Shown here: positions 47,842-64,000 of the stretch, piece by piece | Numbering within the stretch: the stretch's first letter is position 1 | Layout: each line of letters begins with the position of its first letter | NCBI GenBank assembly: GCA_025458905.1 | Contig: JALORN010000015.1 | Coordinates: 1 to 64,000, forward strand | Length of the DNA stretch: 64,000 bases | Direction: 5' to 3' | From: Steroidobacteraceae bacterium | Lineage (GTDB): Bacteria; Pseudomonadota; Gammaproteobacteria; Steroidobacterales; Steroidobacteraceae | Notes under the pieces: generated by a model | The model's database searches: none | What the model saw: only the letters and a program-made list of their open reading frames with translations | What the model was told of the DNA's origin: nothing | Made by a program: the position numbers and the translations under genes

Positions 47842-48006
47842 ATGGTCGTCATTCCTCAGGTACGGTGTGTGAATTCGGTCGTCGGGACGCCGCCATTGCG
47901 CGACGCCAGGTCACGGCTGGGGCTGCGACGCGACGATCGAGCCGCTTCGTGTCCGGCCCAGGATGCGTCCCGGACGGCCATCTTTGAAATCTTGACTTCT
48001 CTGTGT

Positions 48007-48029
48007 TGGTATCCAAGTGATGGATACCA
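48007..48029. promoter_or_regulatory. inverted repeat spanning the lysR start codon
   Basis: TGGTATCC (48007-48014) and GGATACCA (48022-48029) are perfect 8-base arms around a 7-base spacer holding the start codon (ATG 48020). Size and T..A ends fit a LysR-type operator, or the RNA could form a hairpin over the ribosome entry site. It lies in the 178-base region between divergent remnants. Confidence 0.5.
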
Positions 48030-48800
48030 GGAAACTGGACCACAACCTGCTGGTCGCGTTCGGGATGCTGATGGCCGAGCGCAACGTCACCCGCGCGGCG
48101 GCCCGGCTCGGCCTGAGCCGGCCGGCGCTGTCGGCGCAGCTCGAGCGCCTGCGCGAAGTGCTCGCCGACCCGCTCCTTCTGCCCGCACAGCGCGGCATGT
48201 TGCCCACACGGCGCGCCCTCGACCTCGAGGGGCCGCTGCACGCTCAGGCCGAGCGCGGCGAAGTCGACCTCGCGTTGAAGACCCCGGAGACGGCACCGCC
48301 GTCGCTGCCCACGCGCAAGCGGTTCGACGAGCGCTATCTGGCGGTCGGGAGGAAGAACCACCCGCGCGTCAAGCGCAAGCTCGATCTCGACACCTTCTTG
48401 CGCGCTGGAGCACGTGCTCGTGTCGCCGCGCGGTGGTGGGTTCTCCGGGCCGGCGGACGCGGCGCTCGCCGCGCACGGACGGCAGCGTCGCATCGGGGTG
48501 TCGGTCTCCAGCTTCCTGGTCGTGCCGGAGATCGTTGCACGATCGGACCGGATTGCGCTCCTGCCGGAACGCCTGGTGCGCGATCGCGCCGACGGGCTGC
48601 AGCCGTTCGCGCCGCCGATCCCGATCGCAGGCTTCTCGATCGCTGCGCTGTGGCACGACCGTACGTCGTCACATCCGGGCCATCGCTGGATCCGGGACCG
48701 GCTTGCCGCAGATCTGATCGATCATGGATCGGTGACGTCGCCCGCACCGTCGGGCTCGGCGTCGTCGCCGGCGCGGCACCGGCGGCACGGCACCCCCTAG
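48020..48800 (+). pseudogene. LysR-family regulator with internal deletion and frameshift
   Basis: The N-terminal HTH is intact (DTRKLDHNLLVAFGMLMAER, ARLGLSRPALSAQLERLREV). After RALDLEGPL about 60 residues expected at the start of the effector domain are missing, and the chain rejoins at AQAERGEVDLALKTPETAPP. At about 48397 an extra T (CTTCTTGCGC for CTTCTGCGC) shifts the frame. The remainder of the effector domain (LVSPRGGGFSGPADAALA, FLVVPEIVARSDRIALLPER, WHDRTSSHPGHRWIRDRL) continues in the next frame to the stop at 48800. The product would keep DNA binding but lose inducer sensing. Confidence 0.85.
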
Positions 48801-48804
48801 GGTG

Positions 48805-49140
48805 TCAGCGCTCGCGGCGCAGGAGCAGCACGACGCCCGCGGGGTCCGAGGTCCAGTGCCCTTGGACGCCATCCAGCGGCTCGAGCTCGTCACGCTGCGG
48901 GCTTCCGAGCTGCTGCAGTTCGCGATCGGGATCGTCTGCGATCAACTCGAGCCAGACGTCCACCTGGCTCTGGCGTTCGACCCGGTCGACCCACAGGGTC
49001 ATCGCACCGAACTCGAACGCCACCGTGTCGGCGGAGGCCTGCTTCACGCGCAAGCGCACGCGGTCGCGGTAGAACGCCACGGTCGCCTCCCATTGGTGTC
49101 GTGGGACCTTGAGGGCGATGTTTCGGCCCGGTTCGATCAT
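48805..49140 (-). CDS. VOC/glyoxalase-like small protein
   Basis: 111 residues: the opening EPGRNIALKVPRHQWEATVA with the FYRD motif and the C-terminal strand SDPAGVVLLLRRER fit a single VOC module. Both ends are short, and metal-ligand His/Glu positions are not obvious, so it may be a non-enzymatic binding member. ATG 49140 is taken; the longer open frame upstream to 49260 is low-complexity. It lies next to the decayed lysR pair. Confidence 0.65.
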   Translation of the reverse strand: MIEPGRNIALKVPRHQWEATVAFYRDRVRLRVKQASADTVAFEFGAMTLWVDRVERQSQVDVWLELIADDPDRELQQLGSPQRDELEPLDGVQGHWTSDPAGVVLLLRRER

Positions 49141-49334
49141 GCTGCGTACCTCGTGATCCGGCTCGATGCCGGACTGGATCTCGCGACCGGCCCTTGCATG
49201 GGCAGCTGCCCGGCCCGCATGCCCTGTGGGCCGCACGGCCCGCGCCGGTGTTGCGATCATCCTGCCGGTTTGGTCATGCTCGCGCAGGCCGACGCCTGCG
49301 GGACGGCCGTTTGCGCATTCTGAGGATTTCGTCC

Positions 49335-50981
49335 ATGGAGGGTAATGCCGGGAATCGGGCCCGCGGGTGTCCGCCTCGCGGCTTGGGCGGGCCCTGGCTC
49401 GCGGCAGCCTCGCTGGCCGTGGCGCTCCTGGTGTCGTCGGGCGTCGCGCCGCTCGCGGCGGCCGAGCGCACCTTCCATCGCACCGGCACCGACGATCCCG
49501 CGACGGTCGATCCGCACCGCATCGCCTTTCCCGGCGAGCAGCTGGTCGTGCTCGACCTCTTCATGAGCCTGACGACCTACGACAACCGTGGCCGGCCGGT
49601 CGCCGGCTGCGCGGAGTCGTGGACCGTGAGCCCGGACGGTCGCACCTACACGTTCCGGCTGCGCCCGAACCTGCGCTGGTCGGACGGTGTCGCGATGGCG
49701 GCCGAGGACTTCGCCTGGTCGTTCCGCCGCGCGCTCGACCCGAAGACGGCATTCCCCTTCGCCTCGCGGCTCTACCCGATCAAGAATGCCCGCCGCGTCG
49801 CGACCGGCGAGCTGCCGCCCGCCGCGCTCGGCGTCGCGGCGCCGGACCGCCGGACGGTGCGCATCGAGCTCGAGGGCCCGACGCCGTACTTCACCGACGT
49901 GCTCGCCTCGATCGGCATGCCGGCGCCGCGCCACGTGATCGAGAAGCACGGCAGTGCCTGGATCCGCCCGCAGCACTTCGTCAGCAACGGGCCGTTCGTG
50001 CTCGAGCGCTGGGTGCCGAACGCCTACCTGCGACTGCGCCGGAACCCGTACTTCTGGGGCGCGGAGCGCGTGCGCCTCGACGCCGTGCAGCACTACCCGG
50101 TCGAGAACCCGGTGACGATGGTGCGGCGTTTCCAGTCGGGCGGCCTCGACCTCGTCTACGTGCTGCCGCCGGAGCGTGTCGAATGGGCGCGCCGCGAGTT
50201 CGGCGACTCGGTGCGCGTCGGGCGCGGCGTCTCGAACGAGGTGCTGGTGTTCAACACGCGCCGCGGGCCGACCGCCGACGTGCGCGTGCGGCGGGCGCTG
50301 TCGATGGCGATCGACCGCGAGGCGATCGCGAACAGCGTGATCTCCTTCCCGGGGGTGGACGCCTGGGGCTACGTGCCGCCGGGCGTGCTCAACTGGGGCG
50401 AGGGCGCGAAGCCCGACTTCGCCGCCTGGACGCAGGCACGGCGCGACGCGGAGGCGCGGCGCCTGCTCGCGGCCGCGGGCTACGGTGCGGCCCGGCCGCT
50501 GAAGATGCGCATCAGCTTCCCGAGCACGGAGCTCAACCGCAAGGTGGCGGTGACCATCGCGACGATGTGGCGGCGGATCGGGGTGGTGCCCGAGCTGCAG
50601 CAGAAGGAAACCAAGTCGCTGGTGTCGGAGGTGGCGCGTGGCGACTTCGACTCGGCGCGCTTCGTCTGGCTCGCGGGCTTCAGCGACCCTTATGCCTTCC
50701 TCGAACGGCTCTACTCGAGCGGTTCCGCGGTCGGGGTCAACGCCTCCGGCTATCGCAACCCGAAGTACGATGCGCTGCTCGAGCGTGCGCAGCAGGAGAT
50801 CGACCTCGACCGGCGTGCGGCCATCCTGCGCGAGGCCGAGGCGCTGGCGCTCGCCGACCAGCCGGTCGCACCGGTGTACTACCTGGTCGGGCGACGCCTG
50901 GTCTCGGCGCGCACCACCGGTTTCGCCGATAATCCGCGCGGCATGTACCCGAGCTGGTACATGTCGGTGACACCGCGATAG
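49335..50981 (+). CDS. peptide/oligopeptide ABC-type substrate-binding protein (SBP_bac_5), solitary
   Basis: 548 residues. A Sec signal (AAASLAVALLVSSGVAPLAAA) has no lipobox Cys, so it is probably soluble periplasmic. The SBP_bac_5 features are ERTFHRTGTDDPATVDPHRI, AESWTVSPDGRTYTFRLRPN, LRWSDGVAMAAEDFAWSFRR, SNGPFVLERW and VRRALSMAIDREAIAN. DppA/OppA-like proteins bind peptides, nickel or other ligands and feed ABC permeases, but no permease or ATPase gene is adjacent. GAGG at 49322-49325 precedes ATG 49335. The methyltransferase starts nine bases after the stop. Confidence 0.88.
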   Translation: MEGNAGNRARGCPPRGLGGPWLAAASLAVALLVSSGVAPLAAAERTFHRTGTDDPATVDPHRIAFPGEQLVVLDLFMSLTTYDNRGRPVAGCAESWTVSPDGRTYTFRLRPNLRWSDGVAMAAEDFAWSFRRALDPKTAFPFASRLYPIKNARRVATGELPPAALGVAAPDRRTVRIELEGPTPYFTDVLASIGMPAPRHVIEKHGSAWIRPQHFVSNGPFVLERWVPNAYLRLRRNPYFWGAERVRLDAVQHYPVENPVTMVRRFQSGGLDLVYVLPPERVEWARREFGDSVRVGRGVSNEVLVFNTRRGPTADVRVRRALSMAIDREAIANSVISFPGVDAWGYVPPGVLNWGEGAKPDFAAWTQARRDAEARRLLAAAGYGAARPLKMRISFPSTELNRKVAVTIATMWRRIGVVPELQQKETKSLVSEVARGDFDSARFVWLAGFSDPYAFLERLYSSGSAVGVNASGYRNPKYDALLERAQQEIDLDRRAAILREAEALALADQPVAPVYYLVGRRLVSARTTGFADNPRGMYPSWYMSVTPR

Positions 50982-50989
50982 AGGGAGCG

Positions 50990-52096
50990 ATGAACCAGAA
51001 CGTCTACGTGCCGACGCGCGAGGAGAAGTCGCGCCAGGATTTCGTGCTGGGCGTGAAGCTGCTGGCGAACGGCCCGGCGCAACAGCGCGTGCGTGACGAG
51101 TGCGGCGAGCGCCTGCTGCCCGAGGTGGCCGCCCGGCTCGGGCGCGAGCCGCGCGCGCGCCGCGAGGTCGAGCAGGTCGTCGCGCGCAGCGCCGCGTTCC
51201 GCCACTGGGCGGTGCTGACGCACCGCTCGCAGACGATGATGTGGGACGCGATCGAGGCGACCACGCGGCGCGTCGCGGCCGACGGTGCCGCGCGGCTCGC
51301 CCGGCTGCGCGCCGGCGGCGTGTGCCGCGGCTCGCTCGCGCTCGACTCGGGCCTGCACGTGCCGCCGCCGATCTCCAACTGCGAGATCCACCGCCAACCG
51401 GGGGGCTATTGCGGCCCGGACGACCCGCACGACGTCAGCGCGGGCCTGCGCTACATCGGGGCCTCGGCGATCTATGCGGTCGGCAAGGGCCAGGCGCAGG
51501 CGGCCGGCGACGGTCGCGCGGGCATCCTGCTGGCTCAGCTGCGCGAGCGCTTTCCGAGCCTCGGCGAGCCGGCGCGGATCCTCGACCTGGGCTGCGGCAT
51601 CGGCGTGCACGCCCAGGCGATCGCGCGCGAGTTCCCCGGTGCCGAGTACCACGGTGTCGACGTCGCCGCCGGCCTGCTGAAGTTCGGCCACCTCATCGCC
51701 GAGGAGCGCGGCGTGCCGATCCACTTCCACCAGAAGGATGCGGCGCACACCGGCTTCGAGGACGGCAGCTTCGACCTGGTGATCTCCAACATCCTGTTCC
51801 ACGAGACCAACTCGGCACGCCTGCCGCAGATCCTGCGCGAGTGCCGCCGCGTGCTGCGGCCGGGCGGTGCGATGCTGCACGTCGACGTCGCGACCCAGGT
51901 GACGCGCCTGCCGCTCGTGGACCAGGTGATGAACGACTGGCAGGTGCGCTGGAACGGGGAGCCCTTCTGGACCGGGTTCGCCGAGCGCGACATGAAGCGC
52001 GAGATCGTCGCCGCCGGCTTCGACGAGTCGCGCGCCTTCGCCGAGCACGTCGCGAAGCCCGGCGGCGCCTGGTACGTCTTCGGCGCCCGCGCCTGA
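50990..52096 (+). CDS. class I SAM-dependent methyltransferase with N-terminal extension
   Basis: 368 residues. The C-terminal half is a Rossmann methyltransferase (ILDLGCGIGVHAQAIA motif I, HGVDVAAGLLKFGHLIAEER, DLVISNILFHETNSARLP, RRVLRPGGAMLHVDVATQ). The N-terminal about 185 residues contain a helical region and CRGSLALDSGLHVPPPISNC-like Cys, then YIGASAIYAVGKGQAQAAGD; no known domain recognised. It probably forms an operon with the binding protein nine bases upstream. Substrate not predictable. Confidence 0.8.
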   Translation: MNQNVYVPTREEKSRQDFVLGVKLLANGPAQQRVRDECGERLLPEVAARLGREPRARREVEQVVARSAAFRHWAVLTHRSQTMMWDAIEATTRRVAADGAARLARLRAGGVCRGSLALDSGLHVPPPISNCEIHRQPGGYCGPDDPHDVSAGLRYIGASAIYAVGKGQAQAAGDGRAGILLAQLRERFPSLGEPARILDLGCGIGVHAQAIAREFPGAEYHGVDVAAGLLKFGHLIAEERGVPIHFHQKDAAHTGFEDGSFDLVISNILFHETNSARLPQILRECRRVLRPGGAMLHVDVATQVTRLPLVDQVMNDWQVRWNGEPFWTGFAERDMKREIVAAGFDESRAFAEHVAKPGGAWYVFGARA

Positions 52097-52117: not shown

Positions 52118-52158
52118 GGGACAGATTTATTTTCCGGGGCCGAAAATATATCTGTCCC
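52118..52158. repeat. second copy of the dispersed AT-rich repeat (imperfect hairpin)
   Basis: GGGACAGATTTATTTTC (52118-52134) and GAAAATATATCTGTCCC (52142-52158) are inverted 17-base arms with one mismatch around CGGGGCC. CTCTTTTCCGCCCTTTTCC follows. It is related to the repeat at 1-157. It sits between the methyltransferase stop and the YciI-like gene and could also act as a transcription terminator for the former. Confidence 0.8.
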
Positions 52159-52606: not shown

Positions 52607-54145
52607 TCAGGCGGCCGGCGACCCACCCGGCGCTGTGGCCGGCGCGGTCGCAGCCGGGAGGGTCGCGGCGCCCGCCGCGGCCGGCGCGCCGGGGCCGACG
52701 CCCGCGCGCAGCGCCCGCAGCCGCTCGTTGATGCGCGCCTGCTTGTCGGCCGAGATGTCGTAGCGGCTGATCACCCAGACGAGCAGCAGCGCCGCCGACG
52801 AGACCACCACCACGGTGAAGACGGCGAGCTGCGCGACCTTGTCCTGCGGCACGTCGGCGACCTTCGCGCCCACCGGGAAGCGCACCAGGTCGAGCAGCAC
52901 GCCCACCGCCAGGTTGATCGCCGCGCTCGAGGCCTTGGTGCAGAAGAACGTGATGCCGGGGAGCGCGCCCTGCTGTGGCCGGCCGGTGTTCGCCTCGTGC
53001 TCGTCCGCGATGTCCGCGGCGGTGGCGCCGGTGGCGACCAGGAAGGAGCCGTAGGTCAGGCCCTCGAGGAACTGGAAGGCCATCAGCGCGCGCGCGAGTT
53101 CGGGCGTTCCCGGTGGGGGCAGGGCGCCGAGCATCGGCAGCAGCACCGGCAGCAGCACGCAGGCGCAGAAGCCGGCGACGCCCGCGATCATGGTGCGCTT
53201 CTTGTCGAGGCGCCGGATCACGCGCGTCGCGAGCAGTGCGGCGATGATCGTCCCCGGCACCTGCGCGAGCTGCACGTCGCGGATCTGCGGGCCCTCGAGC
53301 TGCCAGTAGTAGGTCGAGAGGTGCAGGGTCAGCACGTTGCTGGTCGAGAGCACCGCGAACACCGCGAGGGTCACCGCGATCACGATGTAGATGTTGGGCG
53401 TGAGGCGGATCGTCGGCAGGAACTGGCGGAACACCGTGCCGAGCGGCAGGCGCGGGTAGGCGGCCGGCGACTCGGCGTCGTGGATGCGCTGCAACGGCCG
53501 GCGCGTGGCCGCGATCGTCACGACCATCACCAGCGTCGCGGCGAGCGCGATCGCCAGCCCGAAGCCCGGGTAGGCCGCCGGGTTCAGCTGGCCGCGCGGG
53601 TATTGCGGGCTGGCGACGAAGAAGAACGTGAAGGCCGCCCAGGTCAGCGAGAAACGCGCGGCGTTGCTGCCGATGGTGCGGATCGCGATCAGCCGCGAGC
53701 GCTCCTCGGGCTCGCGGCTGAGCTCCACGCCGACCGCATAGAACGGGATCGTCCACAGCGTGATGCCGATGCGCGTGATCACCGCGAAGCACAGCAGCCA
53801 GAGGAACAGCTGGAAGCCGCCGAGCCCCGCGGGCGGCATGAACAGCGCGGCGAACGCGCCGGCGAACGGCAGGATCGAGGCCGCCATCAGGGTGTGGCGC
53901 CGGCCGAGCGGGGCGCGCCGCAGGTTGTCGGACCACATGCCGACCAGCGGGTCGGTGACGGCGTCGACGGCTAGCGCCGCGGCGATCGCGGCGCCAGTGA
54001 GCGTGCCCGGCAGGCCGAGCACCTGCGTGTAGTAGAAGAGGACGAACAGATCCCAGCCCGAGCTCTTCCAGGTCTCGGGCGCGATGCCGGCGCCGTAGGC
54101 GATGCGCGTCGGCCACGAGAGGCGGGATGTCAGAGGATCGGCCAC
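52607..54145 (-). CDS. GPH-family (MelB-like) MFS transporter 1
   Basis: 512 residues with 12 hydrophobic segments. The GPH signature is seen in AYGAGIAPETWKSSGWDLF, AVDAVTDPLVGMWSDNLRR and the loop LGRRHTLMAAS. GPH proteins are Na+/H+ symporters for glycosides, glucuronides and other organic substrates. The start is GTG 54145. It is divergent from the first double-nitrilase gene (140 bases apart), and an inverted repeat TGCCGG/CCGGCA at 54192-54221 lies between. A paralogous carrier is paired with the second nitrilase at 62758-64000, so transport and hydrolysis seem linked. Confidence 0.88.
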   Translation of the reverse strand: MADPLTSRLSWPTRIAYGAGIAPETWKSSGWDLFVLFYYTQVLGLPGTLTGAAIAAALAVDAVTDPLVGMWSDNLRRAPLGRRHTLMAASILPFAGAFAALFMPPAGLGGFQLFLWLLCFAVITRIGITLWTIPFYAVGVELSREPEERSRLIAIRTIGSNAARFSLTWAAFTFFFVASPQYPRGQLNPAAYPGFGLAIALAATLVMVVTIAATRRPLQRIHDAESPAAYPRLPLGTVFRQFLPTIRLTPNIYIVIAVTLAVFAVLSTSNVLTLHLSTYYWQLEGPQIRDVQLAQVPGTIIAALLATRVIRRLDKKRTMIAGVAGFCACVLLPVLLPMLGALPPPGTPELARALMAFQFLEGLTYGSFLVATGATAADIADEHEANTGRPQQGALPGITFFCTKASSAAINLAVGVLLDLVRFPVGAKVADVPQDKVAQLAVFTVVVVSSAALLLVWVISRYDISADKQARINERLRALRAGVGPGAPAAAGAATLPAATAPATAPGGSPAA

Positions 54146-54285
54146 CGGCCGACGCTAGCAGCGGAGGCCCGGGGCGCGCCGGTGCGGACCTTGCCGGATC
54201 ATGCCGTGAAACGTTCCGGCAGGTGCCCGCCGACTCGTCACGCGCGGTGGTAAACAAAGTCGACCAGGGGGAGTCGGTCGCGCCG

Positions 54286-56286
54286 ATGATCATCGTTCAG
54301 GAGCGCTGGAATGCCGCCGACGCCGCGTCGCTCGCGGCGCTGCTGCAGGCCGCGCTCGCCGGAGCGCCGCCGCAGGACGAGCCGCAGCTGGTGCTGCTGC
54401 CGCTGGCCGATGGCGGCGGCGAGGCCGGCGAAGCGGCCTGCCTCGCGCGCATCGGGGGCCTCGCGGCGCGCTGCGGGGCGTTCGTCGCCGGTGCGGTGAC
54501 TTATGCGACGGGCACGGTGGGGTTCCTCGTCGATCCACAGGGCCGGGCGGTGCTGCGCGCGCCGAAGACCCTGCCCGACCTCGCCGAGGGCTACGCGGAC
54601 GCCCCGAGTGCGCTGGCCGCCGCGGCGCCGTTCGAGGTCGCGCGCCTGCCCCTCGGCCAGGTCGCGCTGCTGGTCGGCGAGGATGCGACCGCCCCGCACC
54701 TGGTGCGCGCCGCGATGTGGCGCGGCGCCGAGATCCTGCTGAACCCGTCGCGCGAGTCGAACGACGGCCAGTTCGCGATCCGCCAGCAGGCGCGCATGGC
54801 GCGCGCCTACGAGAACCACCTGTGCCTCGCCACCGCCTCGCCGCTGTCGATGCTGCGCGACGGCGGCTTCGAGGAGCGACTGCCGCCCGCCTCGGCCCTC
54901 TACGACGAGTGGGCCCAGCCGGTGCGGGCCGCCGGCGGCGAGAGCTTCCTGCGCGTCGCGCTCGACGTCGAGGCGGTGCGCCGCCGGCGCGCGGAGTTCT
55001 TCGGCAACCTGTGCGTCAGCACGCGCCCGACGATCTACGCGCCCGGCTATCGCGCCGCGATCGCCGCGGAGGGCCCGTCGCCGGGCCGGCCGACGGCGGG
55101 CGGTGCCGGGCCGTCGCCGGCGCCCGCGACGCGCGCGGCCTGGCAGGCCGAGGGGCGGCGACGGGCGACCGGGTACGCGACCGCGCACCCGCGGCGCGCC
55201 GACGCGATCGACCGCTACGACGTGCTGCTCGGCCAGGTCACGGTGCGCCACGTCGTCGATGCGGCCTCGGCGGATGCCGTGATCCGCCGCAACCTCGACC
55301 ACGCGCTGGAGCTGACGGGGCGATTCGCGGCGGCGCCGGACACGCGCCTCGTGGTGTTCCCCGAGTTCTTCCTGCAGGGCTCGAAGATGGGGCGCATGCC
55401 GCAGCTCTTCCCGGTTGCCGGCATCGACCTGCGTTCCAGCCCGCACGTGGAGCGCCTGGCGCGCTTCGCCCAGGATCACAAGGTGCACCTCTGCGGGGCG
55501 GTGCTCGAGATCGACCCGGACTGGCCCGGTCACCTGTTCAACACCGCGTTCATCCTCGACGACCGCGGCGAGCTGGTGCATCGCTACCGCAAGATCCAGT
55601 GCGCCGACGTCTTCGGCTTCATGGACACCACGCCCGGCAGCGTGCTCGACCGCTACCTCGACCGCTACGGCTACGAGGGGCTGTTCCCGGTGGCCGATAC
55701 CCGGCTCGGCCGGCTCGCGACCGCGATCTGCTTCGACATGAACTTCCCCGAGCTGCACCGCGCGCTGGCGCTGCGCGGCGCGGAACTGCTGCTGCACCCG
55801 ACCGCCGAGCCGCACAACGTCCGGCGCCGTGCCTGGGAGAACGGGCGCCAGGTGCGCGCCTGGGAGAACACGATGTACGTGCTCTCGGCCGCGCTGGGCG
55901 GCGAATACTGGGAGCCCGACGGCGAGCTGTCGTTGTTCTCGCGCGGGCACTCCAAGGTGGTGAACTTCGACGGCACGGTGCAGAGCGTCGCCGACGGGCC
56001 GGGCGCGGTGCCGCTCGCCGGCCAGGTCGACCTGCGGGCGCTGCGCGAAGCGCGGGCCGAGGCGCGGCTCTGCCCGCTGCTGTGGGACGAGCCACGGGTC
56101 TACGAGGCCGTCTATTCCGGCACCGTGACGATCCCCGACAACCTGATGCAGGGGCCGGACGATCGTCCCTACGCCGGCGGCAGGGCGTTGAACGAGGCGA
56201 TCGCGCGCCTGACCGCCGCCGGCGTGTTCGTGGCGCCGCGACGCGCGGCGCGCACCGCCGACGCGCTCGCCAGCGGGGGATACTGA
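54286..56286 (+). CDS. double-domain carbon-nitrogen hydrolase 1 (dead N-domain, active-looking C-domain)
   Basis: 666 residues. The N-terminal CN-hydrolase fold (about 1-255) lost two catalytic residues. Its Glu position is Leu40 (LVLLPLADG) and its Cys position aligns with Gly131 (LLVGEDATAP); Lys94 remains. A Pro/Ala-rich linker (about 265-300) leads to a complete C-terminal domain with Glu360 (VVFPEFFLQG), Lys436 (YRKIQCADV) and Cys482 (ATAICFDMNFPEL), the nitrilase triad. It should hydrolyse an amide, nitrile or N-carbamoyl substrate. ATG 54286 is used. It is followed by the TonB receptor gene after 107 bases. Confidence 0.9.
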   Translation: MIIVQERWNAADAASLAALLQAALAGAPPQDEPQLVLLPLADGGGEAGEAACLARIGGLAARCGAFVAGAVTYATGTVGFLVDPQGRAVLRAPKTLPDLAEGYADAPSALAAAAPFEVARLPLGQVALLVGEDATAPHLVRAAMWRGAEILLNPSRESNDGQFAIRQQARMARAYENHLCLATASPLSMLRDGGFEERLPPASALYDEWAQPVRAAGGESFLRVALDVEAVRRRRAEFFGNLCVSTRPTIYAPGYRAAIAAEGPSPGRPTAGGAGPSPAPATRAAWQAEGRRRATGYATAHPRRADAIDRYDVLLGQVTVRHVVDAASADAVIRRNLDHALELTGRFAAAPDTRLVVFPEFFLQGSKMGRMPQLFPVAGIDLRSSPHVERLARFAQDHKVHLCGAVLEIDPDWPGHLFNTAFILDDRGELVHRYRKIQCADVFGFMDTTPGSVLDRYLDRYGYEGLFPVADTRLGRLATAICFDMNFPELHRALALRGAELLLHPTAEPHNVRRRAWENGRQVRAWENTMYVLSAALGGEYWEPDGELSLFSRGHSKVVNFDGTVQSVADGPGAVPLAGQVDLRALREARAEARLCPLLWDEPRVYEAVYSGTVTIPDNLMQGPDDRPYAGGRALNEAIARLTAAGVFVAPRRAARTADALASGGY

Positions 56287-56393
56287 GCAGGGCTGCCGGC
56301 CCCGGGAGGGGCAGGCCGGCCGGGCGGCGCGCCGCGTCGCCGGTTCGTGCAGGACAAGCGTGCCCCGCAGGGGCCAACAGGGGGAGGAGCGTG

Positions 56394-58931
56394 ATGCAAG
56401 GCAGACAGACGGCCGCGACGCGGGTCGCGGCGACGCTGCTCGCGGCGCTGGCGGTGACGCCGGCGGCGTGGGCGCAGGAGCAGGGCCGCGGCGAGGGCGC
56501 CGGGGGACTGGAGGAGATCGTGGTGTCGGCGCGCAAGCGCGAGGAGGCGCTGCTCGAGGTGCCGATCGCGATCACCGCGTTCTCGGCCGAGCAGCTCGAG
56601 GACGCGCAGATCTTCGACCTGCGGCAGATGACCTTCCTCGCGCCCGGCATGACGTTCCAGGCGGTCGGCGGCAATGGCCCGGGCGGGCGCTACAACTCGA
56701 ACCTGATCTTCCGCGGCATGACCAATTCCGCGCCGCTGCCGCGCCAGCAGACCGGCGCCGTGTTCGTCGATGGCGTCTACGTGCTCGGTGGCGTCGCCTC
56801 GGTCAACACCGTCGACGTCGAGCGCGTCGAGGTGCTGAAGGGTCCGCAGAGCGCCTACTTCGGCCGCAACACCTTCGGCGGCGCCGTCAACTTCATCACC
56901 CGCAATCCGGGCGAGGCCTTCAAGGGCTCGGTCACCACCGACCTCGACAGCTTCGGCACCACGAATGCCACGCTGAGCCTCGAAGGGCCGCTGCTCGGCG
57001 AGAAGCTCTCCGGGCGGCTGGCGGTGCTGCGCTACGACCGTGTCGGGCACTACACCGCCAACGACGGCGGCCGGCTCGGCGACGAGAACACGGTCTCGGT
57101 GACCGGCACGCTCTATTCCAAGCCCACCGACAACTTCTGGGCGCGCGTGCGCCTGCACTACCAGGAGGACGAGGACGGCGCGCCGGCGACCGTGCAGCTG
57201 AGCGGCGGCCTGCACGGCAACTCGTGCGCGGGCCGCACCTACCGCGGCCGCAACAACGACGGCACGCCGCGGACCTTCGCCGTCTCGCTGCCGTACTTCT
57301 GCTCCGGCGTCCCGACGATCGGCGAGCTCGGCGAGCGCAACATCGTCTCGACCAACACGACGCTCGCGAGCCCGCTGCTGACCGGCGCCGGGGCGCCGAA
57401 CGCGCTGTTCAACGCGTTCGTCGGCAATTCGCTGAACGACCCGCTGCTGGCGGATGCGCCCCGGCTCGACAACATCGGCATGCGGCGCGAGATCCTGCGC
57501 CTCTCCGCGCAGGCGGAGTACGAGTTCGGCAACGGCATCACCGCGGCGCTGAACCTCGGCTTCAACGAGAACGACACCAACGCGATCACCGACCCCGACC
57601 GCGCCGACATCGAGAACGTGTACACCGCGGCGCCGGCGCTGTTCGAGGATCGCACGGTCGAGCTGCGCTTCGCCTCCGGGCAGGAGCAGCGGCTGCGCTG
57701 GCTGCTCGGCGCGAACTACTACAAGGGCGACTTCGTCGCGCACACCAATGGCTCGGTGATCTGGCAGGTGCCGACGATCCGGCCGATGGCGCCGCCGTTC
57801 TTCCCCACCACCGCGGTGCGCAACACGCCGGCGAACCGCGACGGCGAGAACGCGGTCGTGCAGGGCGTGTTCGGCTCGCTCGACTTCGACCTCACCGACA
57901 CGCTCAGCCTCACCGCCGAGATCCGCTACCAGGAGGACGAGACCACCCTCGGTGCGCCGGTCGATCCGGGCGGCATCCAGCCGATGACGGCCACCTTCAC
58001 CGACACCATGCCGCGCGCGATCCTCAAGTGGCAGCCCTCGCCGTCGACCAACGTGTATGCGAGCTGGTCGAAGGGCGTCCTGCCGGGCCAGTTCAACACC
58101 CAGTACATCAACGCCCCGGCGTTCCAGCGCGCGCAGATCGAGGCTGCGTTCCCCGGCGTCAGCGAGCTCGCGCCCTCGCAGGAACTGGAGAGCCTCGAGA
58201 TCGGCGTCAAGCAGCGGCTGTTCGACGACCGGTTCGAGTACTCCGTCGCCGTCTACGACATGGACTGGACCAGCATGCTGTCGGGCTCGGCGCTGGTGGT
58301 GCAGACGTCCGCGACCAACCCGACGCCGCTGATCCTCACCGGCGTGCTGATCCCCGGTGACTCCCGGCTGCGCGGCATCGAGTTCGAGGGCACGGCGCTG
58401 ATCACCGACAACTGGGACGTGAACCTGCGCCTCGACCTGATGGACACCGAGTACGTCACGTTCTTCCAGCCGTTCGTCGCCCAGCTCACCAGCCAGACGA
58501 GCCGCTTCGACGGCAACACGCTGCCACGCGTGCCGCAGCGCAACGCGAGCCTGTCCTCCACGTATCGCGGGCGCGTGAACGCGGACTGGGGCTGGTTCCT
58601 GCGTGGCGACCTGCTCTACACGGGGAAGGCCTGGGACAGCGAAGCCAACATCGTGCAGGTCAACGACTTCGCGCGCGTCAACATGCGTCTCGGCTTCGAG
58701 CGCGACAACCTCTCGGTCGAGTTGTTCGCGACCAACCTGTTCGACAACGACGACTGGGACTACGGCTTCCGCAGCGTGTCGTTCCGCGAGCCGGGTGGGC
58801 AGCAGTTCGTGCCGCTGCCGGCCGCGGCGCTGCCGCCGGGCTCGCCGCCGACCTTCGGCTTCCAGCAGGGCATGATCGTGCAGCCGCCCGACAAGCGCGC
58901 GATCGGCCTGCGCTTCCGCTTCGACTTCTGA
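56394..58931 (+). CDS. TonB-dependent outer-membrane receptor
   Basis: 845 residues. A signal peptide (VAATLLAALAVTPAAWAQ) precedes a TonB-box-like EEIVVSARKREEALLEVP. The plug includes LRQMTFLAPGMTFQAVGG and VERVEVLKGPQSAYFGRNTF, and the 22-strand barrel ends in KRAIGLRFRFDF. This is a sphingomonad/gammaproteobacterial type used for aromatic, polymer-derived or siderophore-like ligands. GGGGGAGGAGC precedes GTG-ATG at 56391-56396. An inverted repeat GCCGGCC/GGCCGGC (56295-56320) between the nitrilase gene and this one could be an RNA hairpin. Confidence 0.93.
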   Translation: MQGRQTAATRVAATLLAALAVTPAAWAQEQGRGEGAGGLEEIVVSARKREEALLEVPIAITAFSAEQLEDAQIFDLRQMTFLAPGMTFQAVGGNGPGGRYNSNLIFRGMTNSAPLPRQQTGAVFVDGVYVLGGVASVNTVDVERVEVLKGPQSAYFGRNTFGGAVNFITRNPGEAFKGSVTTDLDSFGTTNATLSLEGPLLGEKLSGRLAVLRYDRVGHYTANDGGRLGDENTVSVTGTLYSKPTDNFWARVRLHYQEDEDGAPATVQLSGGLHGNSCAGRTYRGRNNDGTPRTFAVSLPYFCSGVPTIGELGERNIVSTNTTLASPLLTGAGAPNALFNAFVGNSLNDPLLADAPRLDNIGMRREILRLSAQAEYEFGNGITAALNLGFNENDTNAITDPDRADIENVYTAAPALFEDRTVELRFASGQEQRLRWLLGANYYKGDFVAHTNGSVIWQVPTIRPMAPPFFPTTAVRNTPANRDGENAVVQGVFGSLDFDLTDTLSLTAEIRYQEDETTLGAPVDPGGIQPMTATFTDTMPRAILKWQPSPSTNVYASWSKGVLPGQFNTQYINAPAFQRAQIEAAFPGVSELAPSQELESLEIGVKQRLFDDRFEYSVAVYDMDWTSMLSGSALVVQTSATNPTPLILTGVLIPGDSRLRGIEFEGTALITDNWDVNLRLDLMDTEYVTFFQPFVAQLTSQTSRFDGNTLPRVPQRNASLSSTYRGRVNADWGWFLRGDLLYTGKAWDSEANIVQVNDFARVNMRLGFERDNLSVELFATNLFDNDDWDYGFRSVSFREPGGQQFVPLPAAALPPGSPPTFGFQQGMIVQPPDKRAIGLRFRFDF

Positions 58932-58932
58932 T

Positions 58933-59577
58933 TCAGCCGCGGGACGCGGGCGCCGGCGGACGGGGTACCGCCGGCGCCCGCACCTGGAAGCGCGTGCGCC
59001 GCTCGGCACGCGCGGCCTCGATGCCCGCCGGCTCGATCCGCCGGTAGCGGAACACGCTGATCCCCTTCAGCTGGCCGAGTCGCGAGTTCGGCCGCGTCTC
59101 GCCGGTCGCCGGGTCGCGAAGTGGCCGGTTGTAGTAGTCCGCCTCGAGCGCCGTGTACCAGAAGCCGTAGTTCGCCGTCACGAGCACGGTGTCGCCCGAC
59201 AACGTGTGCCACATGCGATAGCGCGAAGCGCCGGTCTCCACGTCTCGCTGGTCGCGCATCACAGAGTGCGCGTCCACCGGCACGAAGCGCCCGTCGGCGC
59301 CGAAGTCGAGCGCGCCGGCCGCGTCGAGGCGGCCGCGCTGCACCGAGGCGACCTCGAAGCCCTCGTCCGGCGGCAGCGTGCCGCCCGCGGCGCGCCGTGC
59401 GAGCTCGCTCGGCGCGTACTGCTTCCACTCGTGGATCGCCACCTCCCCGCCGGGGAGGACCTCGATCCGCAGCACGTTGCCGTACTGGGGGATGATCGGC
59501 TGCATCGCGCCGTCGAAGTAGGAAGCCTCGCCGGCCCAAGCGCCCGCGGCGCGCGCCCAGAACGTCCCGTCAGCCAT
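58933..59577 (-). CDS. unrecognised protein of the nitrilase cluster
   Basis: 214 residues, no signal peptide or TM helix. Alternating aromatic/hydrophobic strands (FWARAAGAWAGEASYFDGAM, VLRIEVLPGGEVAIHEWKQY, TLSGDTVLVTANYGFWYTAL, LKGISVFRYRRIEP) suggest a beta-barrel such as a calycin fold, but I recognise no family. A strong GGAGGAGCGAG precedes ATG 59577. The stop is one base from the convergent receptor stop, and the divergent iclR starts 296 bases away. It probably serves the same substrate as its neighbours; this is inference. Confidence 0.75.
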   Translation of the reverse strand: MADGTFWARAAGAWAGEASYFDGAMQPIIPQYGNVLRIEVLPGGEVAIHEWKQYAPSELARRAAGGTLPPDEGFEVASVQRGRLDAAGALDFGADGRFVPVDAHSVMRDQRDVETGASRYRMWHTLSGDTVLVTANYGFWYTALEADYYNRPLRDPATGETRPNSRLGQLKGISVFRYRRIEPAGIEAARAERRTRFQVRAPAVPRPPAPASRG

Positions 59578-59872
59578 CTCGCTCCTCCGCGGTCGGTGCC
59601 GCCGCGCCCGGATCCTACAACGGCCGCCCGGCGGTGGCGGCGCGGCGTCGGGTAGGGCGGCGCTTCGCGCGAGGCCGGCGAGGCCGCGTCGACGAGCCGC
59701 CGGCGCTGCAATCGCTTCCCGCGGCGCCTCGGCAGCCCGCCTGCCGGTCGCGCAGTCCGCATTCGCCACGCGAGGAGGGCCCGCCCCGCGGTGGTCTGCT
59801 TCTTGAGACAACTGTTTCATCTGGTGAACGCCCGCGGATCGAGGCATCCTGCGCACCCCCGGGGAGGACTCG
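59578..59872. promoter_or_regulatory. intergenic region between unrecognised gene and iclR, with palindrome at 59804-59819
   Basis: This holds promoters for both divergent genes. TGAGACA (59804-59810) and TGTTTCA (59813-59819) form a 16-base palindrome with one mismatch, 54 bases before the iclR ATG and just inside a TTGAGA -35-like hexamer (59803-59808). Its size suits an IclR-family operator. The remainder is GC-rich without other signals. Confidence 0.45.
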
Positions 59873-60664
59873 ATGGCAGGTTCGGTCAGCACGATTCGCA
59901 CGGCAGTCCGCGTGCTGCAGGTGCTCGCGGCGCTCAACGCGGAGCATCCGGCGGGGGCGGCGCTGGTCGCACGCCGCCTGCAGATGTCGCGGGCGACGAC
60001 GTACCGTTTCCTCGAGACGCTGGTCGACGCGGGCTACGCCACCAAGGACCCGGTCTCGGGGCATTACTCGCCCTCGCAGCTGGTGCGCTCGCTGAGCTGT
60101 GGCTTCGAGGACGAGCAGTGGCTCGCGCAGGCGGCGAAGCCGGTGATCCAGGCGGTCGGGCGCGAGCTGATCTGGCCGCTCGCGATCGCGACCCTGTCCG
60201 GCCCGGGCATGCTGCTGCGCGAGAGCACCGACATGCAGAGCCCGCTCGTGGTCAACCGCTTCGCGCCCGGTCGGCGCATCAGCCTGCTGGGCACGGCTTC
60301 GGGGCGCGTCTACCTCGCGTACTGCGGCGACGAGCAGCGCGAGACGCTGCTCGACATCCTCAGCACCTCGACCGACCCGGAGGACGCGGCGATCGCCGAT
60401 CGCGCCGCGGTGCGCCGCGACCTCGCCGCGATCCGCGAGGCGGGCTATGCGACCAGCCGGCGCGCGCAGCGCGTGACCCACCAGTGCGCGATCGCCGTGC
60501 CGGTGCTCGGCAACGGGCGCGTGCTCGCGAGCCTCAGCATCCGCTATGCCGACACGGCGGTGCGCCGGTCGGTGGCGCTGCAGCGCTTCCTGCCGAAGCT
60601 GCAGAAGGCCGCCGGGGAGATCGGCCGAGCCTTCGAGGCCAGCGTGTCCGGCGACGCCCGGTGA
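59873..60664 (+). CDS. IclR-family transcriptional regulator
   Basis: 263 residues: an N-terminal winged HTH (IRTAVRVLQVLAALNAEHPA, RRLQMSRATTYRFLETLVDA, SGHYSPSQLVRSLS) and the C-terminal effector-binding domain (TASGRVYLAYCGDEQRETLL, QRVTHQCAIAVPVLGNGRVL). IclR proteins usually bind a small-molecule pathway intermediate and control catabolic genes. It is flanked by the unrecognised gene and the second nitrilase, so it is the obvious candidate regulator of the cluster. Confidence 0.93.
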   Translation: MAGSVSTIRTAVRVLQVLAALNAEHPAGAALVARRLQMSRATTYRFLETLVDAGYATKDPVSGHYSPSQLVRSLSCGFEDEQWLAQAAKPVIQAVGRELIWPLAIATLSGPGMLLRESTDMQSPLVVNRFAPGRRISLLGTASGRVYLAYCGDEQRETLLDILSTSTDPEDAAIADRAAVRRDLAAIREAGYATSRRAQRVTHQCAIAVPVLGNGRVLASLSIRYADTAVRRSVALQRFLPKLQKAAGEIGRAFEASVSGDAR

Positions 60665-60709
60665 GCCTTTGCGGCTGATGCCGCGCCGGCGCCGCGCTGG
60701 CGGCGCGGC

Positions 60710-62758
60710 TCAGACGCTGTCGGGCAGGCTGGCGCGCGCGGCGGCGACGCCCGGGGCGACGTAGACGCCGCGCTCGAGGTAGGTCTCGATCCGCCGCCGC
60801 AGCTGCCGCCCGCCCGCGTACGGGTTCACCTGCGGGTCGCCCGCCCACAGGTCGTTCGGCAGGCCGACGTCGCCGGCATATGCCTCGGCGTACACCGCGG
60901 GGTCGTCCCAGAGCGCGAGGTTCAGCAGCGGGTTGGCACGCGCACGACGCAGCGCGGCGAGATCGATCGCGACGCGGAACGCGACCGGGCCGGGACCGTC
61001 GACCGTGCCCTCGACGCTGCCATCGAAACGCACGATCCGCGAGTGGCCGCGCCGGAAGAAGGTCAGCGTGTCCGAGTCGTGCGTCAGGTGCTCGCCGCCG
61101 TCGATCGCCGACAGCAGGTAGCAGCCGTTCTCGTAGGCGCGGATGCGCCGCGCCGAGTCCCAGACCTCGCGCCCCGAGCCGCCGTGCGGCTCGGAGGAAG
61201 AATGCAGGATCACCTCGGCGCCGGCGCGCCGCAGGCCGTGCGCGACCTCGGGCACCATGTTGTCGAAGCAGATCATGTTGGCGAGGCGCCCGAGCGGCGT
61301 GTCCGCCACCGGGAACAGCGCGTCCGGGCCGAACGCGTCGAGGTACTGCGACAGCACGCTGCCGGGCGTGGTGTCGGGCAGCAGGCCCCAGACGTCGGCG
61401 CACTGGTTCTTGCGGTAGGTGTGCACCAGGTTGCCGGTGTCGTCCACCAGGAACGCCGAGTTGAACACCCGTCCCGGCATCCGCGGGTGGACCTCGAAGT
61501 TCTGGAAGGCCACCCAGACCTTGTGGCGCTGCGCGAACTCGCCGACGCGGTCGAACACCGGATGCGGGTGCGAGATCGCGAGCCGCGCCATGTCGTCGAC
61601 GGTGCGCTGCACGCCGCCTATGCCGCCGGGGCCGGTGAGCCAGAACTCCGGGAACACCACCAGGCGCACCGAGGGCAGGTTGGCGCGCGAGCCGGCGAGC
61701 TCCAGCGCCTCGTCCAGGTTGCGGCGGATCAGCGCCGCGGCATCGATTGAACGGTCGAGCGGGATCAGCCGCGCGCAGTGCTGCACCAGCAGCGCCTCGT
61801 ACTGCTCCTCGTGGCGCGCGTGCCGCGACGGCGCGCCGGCGCGCTGCTGCAGCCGGCGCCGTGCCTCGTCGCGCCACTGCGCGGCGGTGCGCGGCGCGGC
61901 GGGGGCCGGGCCCGCGGCCGCGGCATCGCGCAGGTAGCCGCGGGCATAGGTGTTGGCGCGCACCAGGGCCGGGAACGAACGGTGCGGGTTGACGCGGATC
62001 CGCCGCAGCAACTGCAGGTCGAGGTCCGGAAAGACGAAGGCCTCGCCGGCGCGGGCGCGCACCGCGGTGCCGGTGAGGCCGTAGAGCGCCGTCGCCGGGG
62101 GCAGCGCCAGCGTCGCACCGCCCTCGCTCACCGAGGCCGGGCTAGCGACCGCGACGAAGCAGGAGTTCTCGCCGGCGCGCGCGAAGCGCGCGACCTGCCG
62201 GATCTCGAAGTGGTCGTCGGAGCGCTCGCGGCAGGGGTTGAGGATCAGCTCCGCGCCGTGGAATGCCAGCGCGCGTGCATGGCTGCAGAAGAGGATGTCC
62301 TCGCCCGGCAGCAGCCCGACCTGGCCGAACGGCGTCGCCACCACCTCGAACGGCGCCTCGCGCCCGAGGGCGCAGGTCGAGTCGTCGAAGCCCTCGACCA
62401 GCTCGGGCGTGAGCTTCGCGGCGCGCAGCCGGGTGCGGCCGTCGTCGCCGACCAGGAACGCGACGACGTGCGGCGCATCCGGCGAGCCCGGCTCGGCGCC
62501 GGCGCGCACCTGCGCGGCGCCGCCGATCCACGCGCCGGCCTCGAGTGCCAAGGCGGCGAGGGAGGCGAGCAGCTCGGCCTCCGCCGGCCGCTCGGTCGCG
62601 CCCGCAGGCGGGGTGGCGAGCGGCAGCAGCACCAGCACCGGGCCGGGCTCGGCCTGGGCGCGGCGCGCCGCGCGCACCGCGGCCTCGAGCGGCGCGCGCA
62701 GGTCGGCGAGCGGCTCCCCGGCGCGCCACGGACACTGGGAAAGTACGAGCGAGCTCAT
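60710..62758 (-). CDS. double-domain carbon-nitrogen hydrolase 2 (paralogue of 54286-56286)
   Basis: 682 residues with the same layout as hydrolase 1. The N-domain again has Leu for the catalytic Glu (LVLLPLATPP) and Gly for the Cys (LLPGEDILFC), while a Lys is kept (RAAKLTPEL). The C-domain is complete: Glu371 (VVFPEFWLTG), Lys450 (YRKNQCADV) and Cys497 (ANMICFDNMVPEV). Both end with PYAGGR, then GV, VAP. ATG 62758 overlaps the carrier stop by one base (TGATG), so carrier and hydrolase are co-translated. Substrate unknown. Confidence 0.9.
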   Translation of the reverse strand: MSSLVLSQCPWRAGEPLADLRAPLEAAVRAARRAQAEPGPVLVLLPLATPPAGATERPAEAELLASLAALALEAGAWIGGAAQVRAGAEPGSPDAPHVVAFLVGDDGRTRLRAAKLTPELVEGFDDSTCALGREAPFEVVATPFGQVGLLPGEDILFCSHARALAFHGAELILNPCRERSDDHFEIRQVARFARAGENSCFVAVASPASVSEGGATLALPPATALYGLTGTAVRARAGEAFVFPDLDLQLLRRIRVNPHRSFPALVRANTYARGYLRDAAAAGPAPAAPRTAAQWRDEARRRLQQRAGAPSRHARHEEQYEALLVQHCARLIPLDRSIDAAALIRRNLDEALELAGSRANLPSVRLVVFPEFWLTGPGGIGGVQRTVDDMARLAISHPHPVFDRVGEFAQRHKVWVAFQNFEVHPRMPGRVFNSAFLVDDTGNLVHTYRKNQCADVWGLLPDTTPGSVLSQYLDAFGPDALFPVADTPLGRLANMICFDNMVPEVAHGLRRAGAEVILHSSSEPHGGSGREVWDSARRIRAYENGCYLLSAIDGGEHLTHDSDTLTFFRRGHSRIVRFDGSVEGTVDGPGPVAFRVAIDLAALRRARANPLLNLALWDDPAVYAEAYAGDVGLPNDLWAGDPQVNPYAGGRQLRRRIETYLERGVYVAPGVAAARASLPDSV

Positions 62759-64000
62759 CAGGCGTTCCTCGTGGGCGAGGCCGCGCGCAACGCCTCGAGA
62801 CCGCGGACGATCTCGGCGTGGCGCGCACGCGGCAGGTGGTAACCGGAATAGAACCCGAGCGCGACGCAGCCGGCGAGGGCGGTCAGGCTGACCGCCGCGA
62901 TGCCGAGCAGCTGCAGCGCGCCGGCGTCGGGCGCGACGTCCTGGCGGCCGACCGGCAGCGCGACCCATTGCACGACGATGCCGGCCGCGAGCTTGCCGAG
63001 GCTCGAGGCCATCTTGTTGCCGAGCGGCAGGAAGGCCAGCAGCATGCCGGTGCGCGACTCGCGCTTCTCGTAGGCGTACTCGTCGGCGGTCTCGGCGAAC
63101 ATCACCAGCGAGCAGGCCATGATGAGGCCGGTGCCGGCGCCGACCGCGACGTTGGAGAGGTACAGCAGCTGCACCAGCGCTGCGCTGCCGTTCGGCGGCA
63201 TCAGGTCGAGCAGTCGTGCGAGCGGCGGCAGCACGTAGGCGAGCATCATCGTGGCGACGCCGCTGACGTACAGCGTCTTCGGCTCGACGCGGCCGACCAC
63301 CAGCCGCGAGGCGATCGCCGCGACGAAGGTCGCGACCTGGATGCTCATCAGCCAGGTGCCGGTCTGCTGCGTGGAGAGGCCCCAGAAGTAGGTGCCGAGG
63401 TGCAGGTTCAGCGCGCGGAAGTACGAGCCCATGACGCCGGCGAACAGCAGCCCGAGGAACAGCATGCGGAAGTTCGGCAGGTCGGCGAGCGCCCGCCAGG
63501 TCGCGAGCAGCGAGGCCTTGACCGAGAACACCCGGGGCTTCACGGCGACCCGCGCGCGCTCGAACGCCTGGATCGGCCGCAGCGTGCCGGCGGCGCCGAG
63601 CAGCGCCCCGAGCATCAGCACCCCCACCACCAGCAGCGCGAAGCGCGGGTAGTTGTCCGGATTCTCCTGGCCGCGGGAATAGCTGCCGGTATCGGCGAAG
63701 GCGAGGTTGAACAGCAGCCAGGTCAGCCCGGAACCCACCGCGGCGGTGACCGCCTGGCGCCAGATGCCGAGCTCGGCACGCACCTTGGCGTCCTCGGTGA
63801 GCTCGGCCGCGACCGCGGCGGCGGGCACGGCGTAGAACGAACCGGTGATCCGCACCGCGAGGCACAGCGCCAGCAGCCAGGCGAACAGCCCCGCCTGCCC
63901 GAGCCCGGCGGGCACCGAGAACAGCAGCCAGACGAACAGGCCGGTCGGCGCGATCGCGAGGAACATCAACGTGTGGCGCCGCCCGAGCGGGCCGCGGAAG
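62758..64000 (-). CDS. GPH-family MFS transporter 2 (N-terminus cut by window edge)
   Basis: At least 413 residues are visible. The gene continues beyond 64000. LGRRHTLMFLAIAP near the edge matches LGRRHTLMAAS in transporter 1, so the two are paralogues. Segments FSRGQ-like YSRGQENPDNYPRF correspond to the loop with YPRGQLNPAAYPGF in transporter 1. It overlaps hydrolase 2 by one base. It presumably moves the substrate or product of that hydrolase across the inner membrane. Confidence 0.88.
   Translation of the reverse strand, partial: FRGPLGRRHTLMFLAIAPTGLFVWLLFSVPAGLGQAGLFAWLLALCLAVRITGSFYAVPAAAVAAELTEDAKVRAELGIWRQAVTAAVGSGLTWLLFNLAFADTGSYSRGQENPDNYPRFALLVVGVLMLGALLGAAGTLRPIQAFERARVAVKPRVFSVKASLLATWRALADLPNFRMLFLGLLFAGVMGSYFRALNLHLGTYFWGLSTQQTGTWLMSIQVATFVAAIASRLVVGRVEPKTLYVSGVATMMLAYVLPPLARLLDLMPPNGSAALVQLLYLSNVAVGAGTGLIMACSLVMFAETADEYAYEKRESRTGMLLAFLPLGNKMASSLGKLAAGIVVQWVALPVGRQDVAPDAGALQLLGIAAVSLTALAGCVALGFYSGYHLPRARHAEIVRGLEALRAASPTRNA

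Follow-up and report, generated by a model that had tools for sequence, protein, structure and literature searches.

Within a stretch of 64,000 nucleotides from a Steroidobacteraceae bacterium (assembly GCA_025458905.1, contig JALORN010000015.1, positions 1 to 64,000; hereafter the window), we identified a cluster of transport, regulatory and hydrolase genes that includes two proteins, NIT1 and NIT2, each carrying two nitrilase-superfamily domains, one predicted to be dead and the other live. This enzyme architecture is real and recurrent, is apparently undescribed, and lies within a modular locus for uptake and hydrolysis. The initial annotation of the window had singled out the cluster as its best candidate for an undescribed system, a choice that we judge to have been right. 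The window corresponds to C39:1-64000, where C39 is a 68.6-kb contig in a 4.28-Mb metagenome-assembled genome (MAG; G000) that is 86% complete. Outside the window, genes were called with a codon-usage script rather than a published caller, and some were missed or cut, such as the GPH carrier in locus L127.

To describe the catalytic residues of these proteins we surveyed 72 sequences, less 7 shorter than 560 residues, leaving 65 (64 of them distinct, as one copies NIT2). The C-terminal domain carried each member of the nitrilase triad in every case (Glu 65/65, Lys 65/65, Cys 65/65). In the N-terminal domain, the catalytic Cys was found in none (0/65), with Gly in its place in 62 sequences and Ser in 3, while Glu was present in 2/65 and Lys in 59/65. 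Aligned with hhalign, profiles of the two domains matched with a probability of 99.7% (E 1.2e-25), with Gly standing at the catalytic Cys position of the N-domain; this profile evidence marks the N-terminal region as a genuine domain of the nitrilase superfamily. Because the C-domain triad is complete and the N-domain Cys is lost throughout the surveyed sequences, the ‘double nitrilase’ is, as predicted from its residues, a catalytically dead N-domain fused to a C-domain with a full triad. The initial annotation had called NIT1 and NIT2 double-domain hydrolases; both domains are there, but only the C-terminal one retains the triad.

Membership in the superfamily is supported by PF00795 matches above cut-off in both proteins and, for NIT1, by a fold match. 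A structure of NIT1, predicted from an alignment (A2) of 36 of the surveyed sequences, was confident over both domains (pLDDT 90.7, pTM 0.92), and its best Foldseek match was the formamidase of Bacillus cereus (5g3o; TM 0.80 on target length). The same formamidase and an aliphatic amidase (2uxy) ranked top in a profile search against solved structures. Neither protein reached the cut-off of any NCBIfam equivalog: the best score of NIT1 was 86.9 bits against 406 for formamidase, and that of NIT2 was 79 against 500 for deaminated glutathione amidase.

In the published account (PMC4700190), the known functional members of the nitrilase superfamily are described as having an underlying dimer, with one exception noted from an unpublished crystal structure. 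Because of this shared dimer, the N-domain most likely takes the place of a second subunit, which would make each double nitrilase a built-in, half-dead dimer. Our searches of an open-access library found no description of proteins with two nitrilase domains, whether tandem, fused or with an inactive domain, of the kind seen here, and the enzymes are apparently an undescribed variant of the superfamily. In the window genome, the 24 CN-hydrolase matches in 4.28 Mb, 23 of which score above cut-off, include five full-length two-domain nitrilases, two on C39 and one each on contigs C56, C37 and C57. The C37 copy (L024:7315-9435) has an apparent twin-arginine signal at its start, the C57 copy (L022:5741-7615) lies directly behind a P450 gene, and creatinase-like M24 genes are found close to both.

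The two double nitrilases of the window have separate histories. In a tree of 66 sequences, NIT1 and its orthologue in the sibling genome G017 (about 75-76% identical) fall in a clade of 24, and NIT2 falls with the sequences of loci L075 and L076, its orthologues at 67-69%, in a clade of 18 in the other half of the tree, the split between the halves being supported at 99/99. In this tree the long branches of the C57-type group may have been drawn to the NIT1 pair wrongly, which makes the finer placement uncertain, and the L024 branch is very long. NIT1 and NIT2 each have closer relatives in other species than each other, and from these placements they are old paralogues. The two carriers that accompany them, GPH1 and GPH2, are only about 33% identical, a comparison made from identities and without a carrier tree. 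GPH1 has its nearest relatives, at 41-44%, mostly among carriers adjoining double nitrilases of an amine-oxidase cluster type; those of GPH2, at 69-75%, adjoin NIT2 orthologues, including one of 69% beside the NIT2 orthologue of genome G006. Since each nitrilase and each carrier is closer to genes elsewhere than to its counterpart, the locus is, judged from these comparisons, a composite of two older modules and not a mirrored duplication. The initial annotation had suggested aligning the two hydrolases and the two carriers, and had seen in them a duplicated carrier-plus-hydrolase pair; the alignments, which place NIT1 and NIT2 in opposite tree halves and GPH1 and GPH2 far apart, speak against that view, as the paralogues are not mutual closest relatives.

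The seven genes named by the initial annotation are all present, in the order it gave, and Pfam supports its carriers, hydrolases, receptor and IclR regulator. GPH1 (52607-54145, minus strand) is a GPH-type MFS carrier of 512 residues matching PF13347 (MFS_2; E 2.3e-51). It is followed on the plus strand by NIT1 (54286-56286, 666 residues; PF00795, CN_hydrolase) and by a TonB-dependent receptor of 845 residues (56394-58931) with barrel (PF00593) and plug (PF07715) domains. A 214-residue uncharacterised protein (58933-59577, minus strand) comes next, then the IclR-family regulator (59873-60664, plus strand, 263 residues; PF01614 and PF09339). NIT2 (60710-62758, minus strand, 682 residues) matches PF00795 in two stretches, and GPH2 (C39:62758-64266, minus strand, 502 residues) runs beyond the end of the window, its in-window part matching PF13347 at E 2.9e-29. 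The start codon of NIT2 overlaps the stop of GPH2 in TGATG, making the two a coupled gene pair.

The cluster extends to the right of the window, to about C39:67.4 kb, with an EntS-like MFS (C39:64382-65626, minus strand; Pfam MFS_3), a second methyltransferase (methyltransferase 2; C39:65823-67049, plus strand) and a protein of 118 residues (C39:67046-67402, plus strand). On the left side, methyltransferase 1 (50990-52096, plus strand), which has Pfam methyltransferase domains, probably belongs to it; its best relative, at 41.5%, is in a locus with nitrilase, IclR and receptor genes (L078). An orphan OppA-like binding protein (49419-50981, plus strand; PF00496) is a possible member: SBP_bac_5-cluster genes are present in 17/51 double-nitrilase loci, but its 70% orthologue in G017 adjoins mutS with no nitrilase beside it. 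Methyltransferase 2 is part of a family with a long N-terminal extension that occurs recurrently beside a protein of about 70-118 residues (L021:5823-7402, L129, L078, L135, L123 and L140); the two small proteins that were scanned had no Pfam match, and one relative in this group, L123:718, seems to bear an export signal. We also observed a perfect 7-base inverted repeat, TATTTTC/GAAAATA, at 52128-52148, in the gap of 50% GC that separates methyltransferase 1 from a weakly YciI-like gene. Further left, an apparently broken LysR-type gene and a small open reading frame on the opposite strand (47395-49260) follow a tRNA-Arg gene (47001-47077). The idea of a recent horizontal island was set aside: the 3' end of this tRNA has no exact repeat in the contig and base and tetranucleotide composition are ordinary, although no integrase search was made.

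Both carriers pass the Pfam MFS_2 cut-off and miss that of TIGR00792 (96.7 and 101.5 bits against 231.35), so we say of GPH1 and GPH2, on their sequences, that they resemble GPH carriers and make no stronger family claim. The window genome has 16 MFS_2 matches in its 4.28 Mb, which by our hand estimate gives an expectation of about 0.045 within 5 kb of any one gene; such a carrier is found near three of its five full-length double nitrilases, more often than by chance. The receptor has relatives at 43-44% in loci with NIT2 orthologues (L076/L126 and L077), whereas in the window it follows NIT1.

The uncharacterised protein, which the initial annotation had described as unrecognised and beta-rich, has no match in Pfam or NCBIfam, and its predicted structure is indeed a beta barrel, of calycin or lipocalin-like type and with a C-terminal helix, at low confidence (pLDDT 79.6 in the best model, 51-59 in the other four). 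Foldseek finds the model weakly like NanoLuc, lipocalin and nitrobindin folds (best E 6.6e-4), and a search against a viral fold library gave nothing useful; a role as ligand carrier is a guess from this model. The protein occurs in 3/60 genomes, the window genome included, all of them among the 8/60 with two-domain nitrilases, for which we estimate by hand a chance of about 0.002. It adjoins NIT1 in G017 and a single-domain nitrilase gene on contig C136 of genome G038, and a second, distant G038 relative lies on a contig (C77) with no nitrilase. A G038 relative has an apparent twin-arginine-like signal at its start, and none was seen in the window copy.

To assess how far this organization is conserved, we compared 51 loci holding 66 full double nitrilases, with L021, L125, L126, L127, L137, L138 and L139 excluded as copies. 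Gene-family labels in this survey are similarity clusters of which few members each were checked against Pfam (one label, ‘cupin’, is our own and had no Pfam match), and loci often end at contig ends; because six loci from gammaproteobacterial MAGs hardly differ and several MAGs are closely related, the counts are not of independent events. A GPH carrier lies within 5 kb of 15/66 double-nitrilase genes. Across the 51 loci, we found GPH carriers in 15, receptors in 12, methyltransferases in 11, the EntS-like MFS in 9 and IclR in 7, alongside SBP_bac_5-cluster genes (17), DUF1838 (15) and flavin amine oxidases (12). Two or more double nitrilases occur together in 9/51 loci. A nitrilase, a GPH carrier, a receptor and an IclR gene were together in no fetched stretch except the window's, many of the stretches being cut short. 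The co-occurrence that the initial annotation proposed to look for is therefore partial: GPH carriers are recurrently linked to double nitrilases, but the seven genes were seen together nowhere else.

Genomes G019, G006, G015 and G017, of the window's own genus, seem from their matching coordinates to equal loci L075, L076, L084 and L041. G017, the closest sibling (99% complete), has counterparts of 5/7 genes, split over two contigs. One encodes the IclR regulator (78%), the EntS-like MFS (65%), NIT1 (75%) and the uncharacterised protein (65%, cut by the contig end). The other encodes GPH2 (75%), methyltransferase 2 (84%) and, broken off by the contig end after 118 residues, a NIT2-like gene that is 53% identical to NIT2 and 39% to NIT1. 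Within the window genome itself, contig C56 (pieces L025 and L135) has two GPH-type carriers, IclR, an EntS-like MFS, a receptor, a methyltransferase and one double nitrilase, together with amine oxidases and a molybdenum dehydrogenase.

Related loci add amine oxidation, and in six of them a cytochrome c gene sits beside the amine oxidase. These six (L051, L056, L061, L069, L081 and L085), from gammaproteobacterial MAGs that we take from isolate names only to be sponge or coral associated, have consecutive genes for a GPH carrier, a double nitrilase, a flavin amine oxidase and cytochrome c, as well as DUF1838 and metallo-beta-lactamase-fold genes. In alphaproteobacterial MAGs (L050, L053, L055, L060, L062, L064 and L087), two or three double nitrilases lie beside a lysine-aminomutase-like radical SAM gene, with a sodium:alanine symporter also adjacent. 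The three-nitrilase loci of Rhodospirillaceae-labelled MAGs were rejected as a direct model, as their neighbours differ. Two records may be mislabelled: L058, titled Rhodospirillales, whose genome matches are identical to those of G038, of the window's order, and L077, titled Marinimicrobia, whose nitrilase groups with alphaproteobacterial sequences.

A scan of named genomes with two peptide patterns, which was not exhaustive, gave 47 double-nitrilase loci, 45 from MAGs and 2 from one uncultured isolate record, AG-426-B21. In surveys of evenly drawn samples, which scored the 3 top candidates of each genome with a threshold of E 1e-130, a match was found in at least 15/396 genomes of the order and at least 1/398 of the phylum (the window genome itself), numbers that are lower bounds because only 3 candidates per genome were scored. 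A plasmid location was considered and rejected: 606 plasmid records match NIT2 partly, and 0 cover 80% of it.

The regulator carries both the helix-turn-helix and the C-terminal effector domain of the IclR family. Its nearest NCBIfam models, below cut-off, are PcaR/PcaU/PobR and PRK09834, which we take to be the MhpR-type model. Besides the 78% orthologue in G017, a relative of 63% lies beside methyltransferases in G038. A candidate operator, TTCATCTGGTGAA, is found at 59816-59828 in the divergent promoter between the uncharacterised protein and IclR, and a second, TTCATCCGGTGAA, at C39:65683-65695 in that between the EntS-like MFS and methyltransferase 2. Both have the exact IclR group-1 core TYCRY-N3-RYGRA and resemble the MhpR operator, as given in PMC8222616. 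The second site has a weaker copy 31 bp away, at C39:65714-65726, and a weak candidate with 3 mismatches is found at 54198-54210 in the divergent GPH1/NIT1 promoter. Five exact core matches occur in the 68.6-kb contig, and the only two in intergenic DNA (11% of the contig by our own gene calls) are the two cluster promoter sites. Among 30 intergenic gaps longer than 60 bp, 4 hold a match with at most 3 mismatches, and 3 of these 4 are in the cluster. Weaker copies were also found in 2/3 of the G017 promoters examined. Co-regulation of the cluster through this palindrome is likely, as far as such motif matches can suggest.

The reading that we favor, at a probability just short of even, is that two older modules were brought together into a locus that scavenges small organic amides under the control of the IclR protein. 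The receptor would carry the compound across the outer membrane, and the GPH-type carriers would take the compound, or fragments of it, on through the inner membrane. The C-domains would then hydrolyse a C-N bond via Cys-Glu-Lys to give an acid and ammonia or an amine, with the dead N-domain replacing the second subunit of the usual dimer. Because NIT1 and NIT2 are distant paralogues kept together, they would most likely each have an amide of their own as substrate or catalyse two successive steps. The IclR protein may sense an acid-like substrate or product and switch the divergent promoters together, while the EntS-like MFS may expel an end product or toxic intermediate. Amides are favored over nitriles as the substrate class because the nearest characterised relatives are amidases. 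The dedicated scavenging system proposed by the initial annotation is partly borne out: uptake and hydrolysis genes surround one receptor and one regulator, and a candidate IclR operator lies at divergent promoters of the cluster; its substrate class is narrowed solely by the amidase resemblance. The annotation had also known of no described system of this composition, and we found none in our searches of an open-access library.

Several observations weigh against amide scavenging under IclR control. The cluster itself lacks downstream enzymes for the carbon skeleton, the amine oxidases and molybdenum dehydrogenase being in C56 instead, and the siderophore-type receptor score, the EntS-like exporter and the methyltransferases also fit biosynthesis or detoxification. 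Neither GPH1 nor the receptor has a clear orthologue in G017 (best 41-42% and 48%, respectively), and the closest relatives of the receptor, at 57% (G011, C53) and 48-49% (G017, C29, and the window genome's own C57), lie in fetched stretches without a nitrilase, two of these three being contigs under 8 kb. For the operator, the motif was derived from its own two sites, and matches with 3 mismatches, as at the GPH1/NIT1 site, are common, numbering 42 over the 68.6-kb contig. The likeness of the two promoters (14/16) was equalled by 1/10 shuffles of another promoter pair; pairwise likeness by itself is unconvincing, and we therefore put weight on the palindrome, on the sites of the second genome and on agreement with the published consensus. 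Three further gaps of the cluster (upstream of the binding protein, NIT1 to receptor, GPH2 to MFS) hold no match, nor does the IclR promoter of G017, and the exact group-1 core is absent from the G017 promoters. In C56, the L025 part shows no excess of matches, and L135 has near matches, one with 1 mismatch and three with 2 mismatches, that fall within coding DNA.

The strongest competitor, unlikely but to be taken seriously, is a loose neighbourhood in which two independent scavenging modules lie side by side by chance and share no pathway. It gains some weight over amide scavenging under IclR control from the receptor's closest kin, which have no nitrilase in the stretches fetched, and from the G017 sites, which miss the exact core; the modules are also separable in other genomes, and the binding-protein orthologue sits elsewhere in G017. 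Chance alone accounts poorly for a palindrome common to promoters of both halves, for several double nitrilases being together again in 9/51 loci, and for C56 of the same genome having much the same parts. Detoxification or self-protection, in which the amidases would inactivate an amide-bearing natural product, the EntS-like MFS would expel it and IclR would sense it, we consider improbable. An EntS-like MFS is indeed present in 9/51 loci, and the window copy, besides its MFS_3 match, scores with H+ antiporter, EntS and efflux models, all below cut-off; but importers are no rarer than the exporter (receptors in 12 and GPH-type carriers in 15 of the 51 loci), and related loci hold genes of oxidative catabolism (amine oxidase, cytochrome c, molybdenum dehydrogenase, P450). 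That the cluster is biosynthetic or of siderophore type, with the nitrilases tailoring or condensing an amide, appears distinctly improbable as well: the receptor scores best with the TonB-siderophore model, and an EntS-like MFS and two methyltransferases are at hand, but that score is under the cut-off (146 against 223.5 bits), and the genes called between 49419 and C39:67402, scanned against Pfam or NCBIfam, include no peptide, polyketide or siderophore synthetase. That one carrier-plus-hydrolase pair was duplicated locally in mirror image around the receptor and regulator, as would be suggested by each carrier flanking a double nitrilase towards the outside of the cluster, is hardly credible given the well-supported tree split with closer kin elsewhere, the divergence of the carriers, each nearer to those of other loci, and the separate contigs that hold the two halves in G017.

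A broader proposal, which we offer tentatively and hold to be somewhat improbable on balance, reaches beyond this locus. The double nitrilases would be a new branch of the superfamily in which the dimer is replaced by a fused live/dead pair, and would form the hub of a swappable catabolic kit for unrecognised amide natural-product nutrients. Through such a fusion the dead half might become free to influence regulation or the choice of substrate. The kit would comprise GPH-type carriers, TonB receptor, IclR, EntS-like exporter, DUF1838, flavin amine oxidase, and the methyltransferase with its small partner, and its users would be uncultured bacteria that seem to be aquatic and sponge-associated for the most part, habitats that we guess from isolate names. 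If this holds, a dimer-based superfamily has a lineage that joined a dead to a live copy and then diversified, with five full-length copies in the window genome; a class of amide nutrients is used by uncultivated bacteria; and the cluster is a compact regulon with a predicted operator.

Among known enzymes, AmiE and AmiF are the closest to the C-domain in sequence profile and fold, and the Glu-Lys-Cys triad is retained. The NIT proteins differ from them in identity (20-26% among the fold matches listed), in falling far under the curated NCBI cut-offs, and in their extra, dead N-terminal nitrilase domain. NAD synthetases, in which a nitrilase domain is joined to another domain, and NitFhit (1ems), met in the profile search, are likewise fusion proteins; in the NIT proteins, however, the partner is a second nitrilase domain, catalytically dead. 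DavA, the aminovaleramidase that partners the lysine monooxygenase DavB, is a single-domain enzyme. Related loci resemble the DavB/DavA route in pairing flavin amine-oxidase-family enzymes with nitrilase-superfamily proteins, whereas the window cluster has no amine oxidase and its NIT proteins are two-domain. NicA2 and Pnao are described as flavin amine dehydrogenases that work with cytochrome c (PMC12224317). The amine oxidase and cytochrome c that directly follow the double nitrilase in six related loci are compatible by analogy with enzymes of this kind; the window cluster has no such genes. The regulator is likened to the MhpR/PcaU type by its best NCBIfam models and by a candidate operator resembling the published MhpR site, but it falls below the family cut-offs, and its neighbours are transporters and amidases, not ring-cleavage enzymes. 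Finally, in a report on phenanthrene use by Sphingobium, the IclR protein PheR is linked to catabolic genes and TonB receptors (PMC13273656); the cluster described here differs from that system in its enzymes and substrate class, and like it brings together an IclR regulator, a TonB receptor and catabolic genes.

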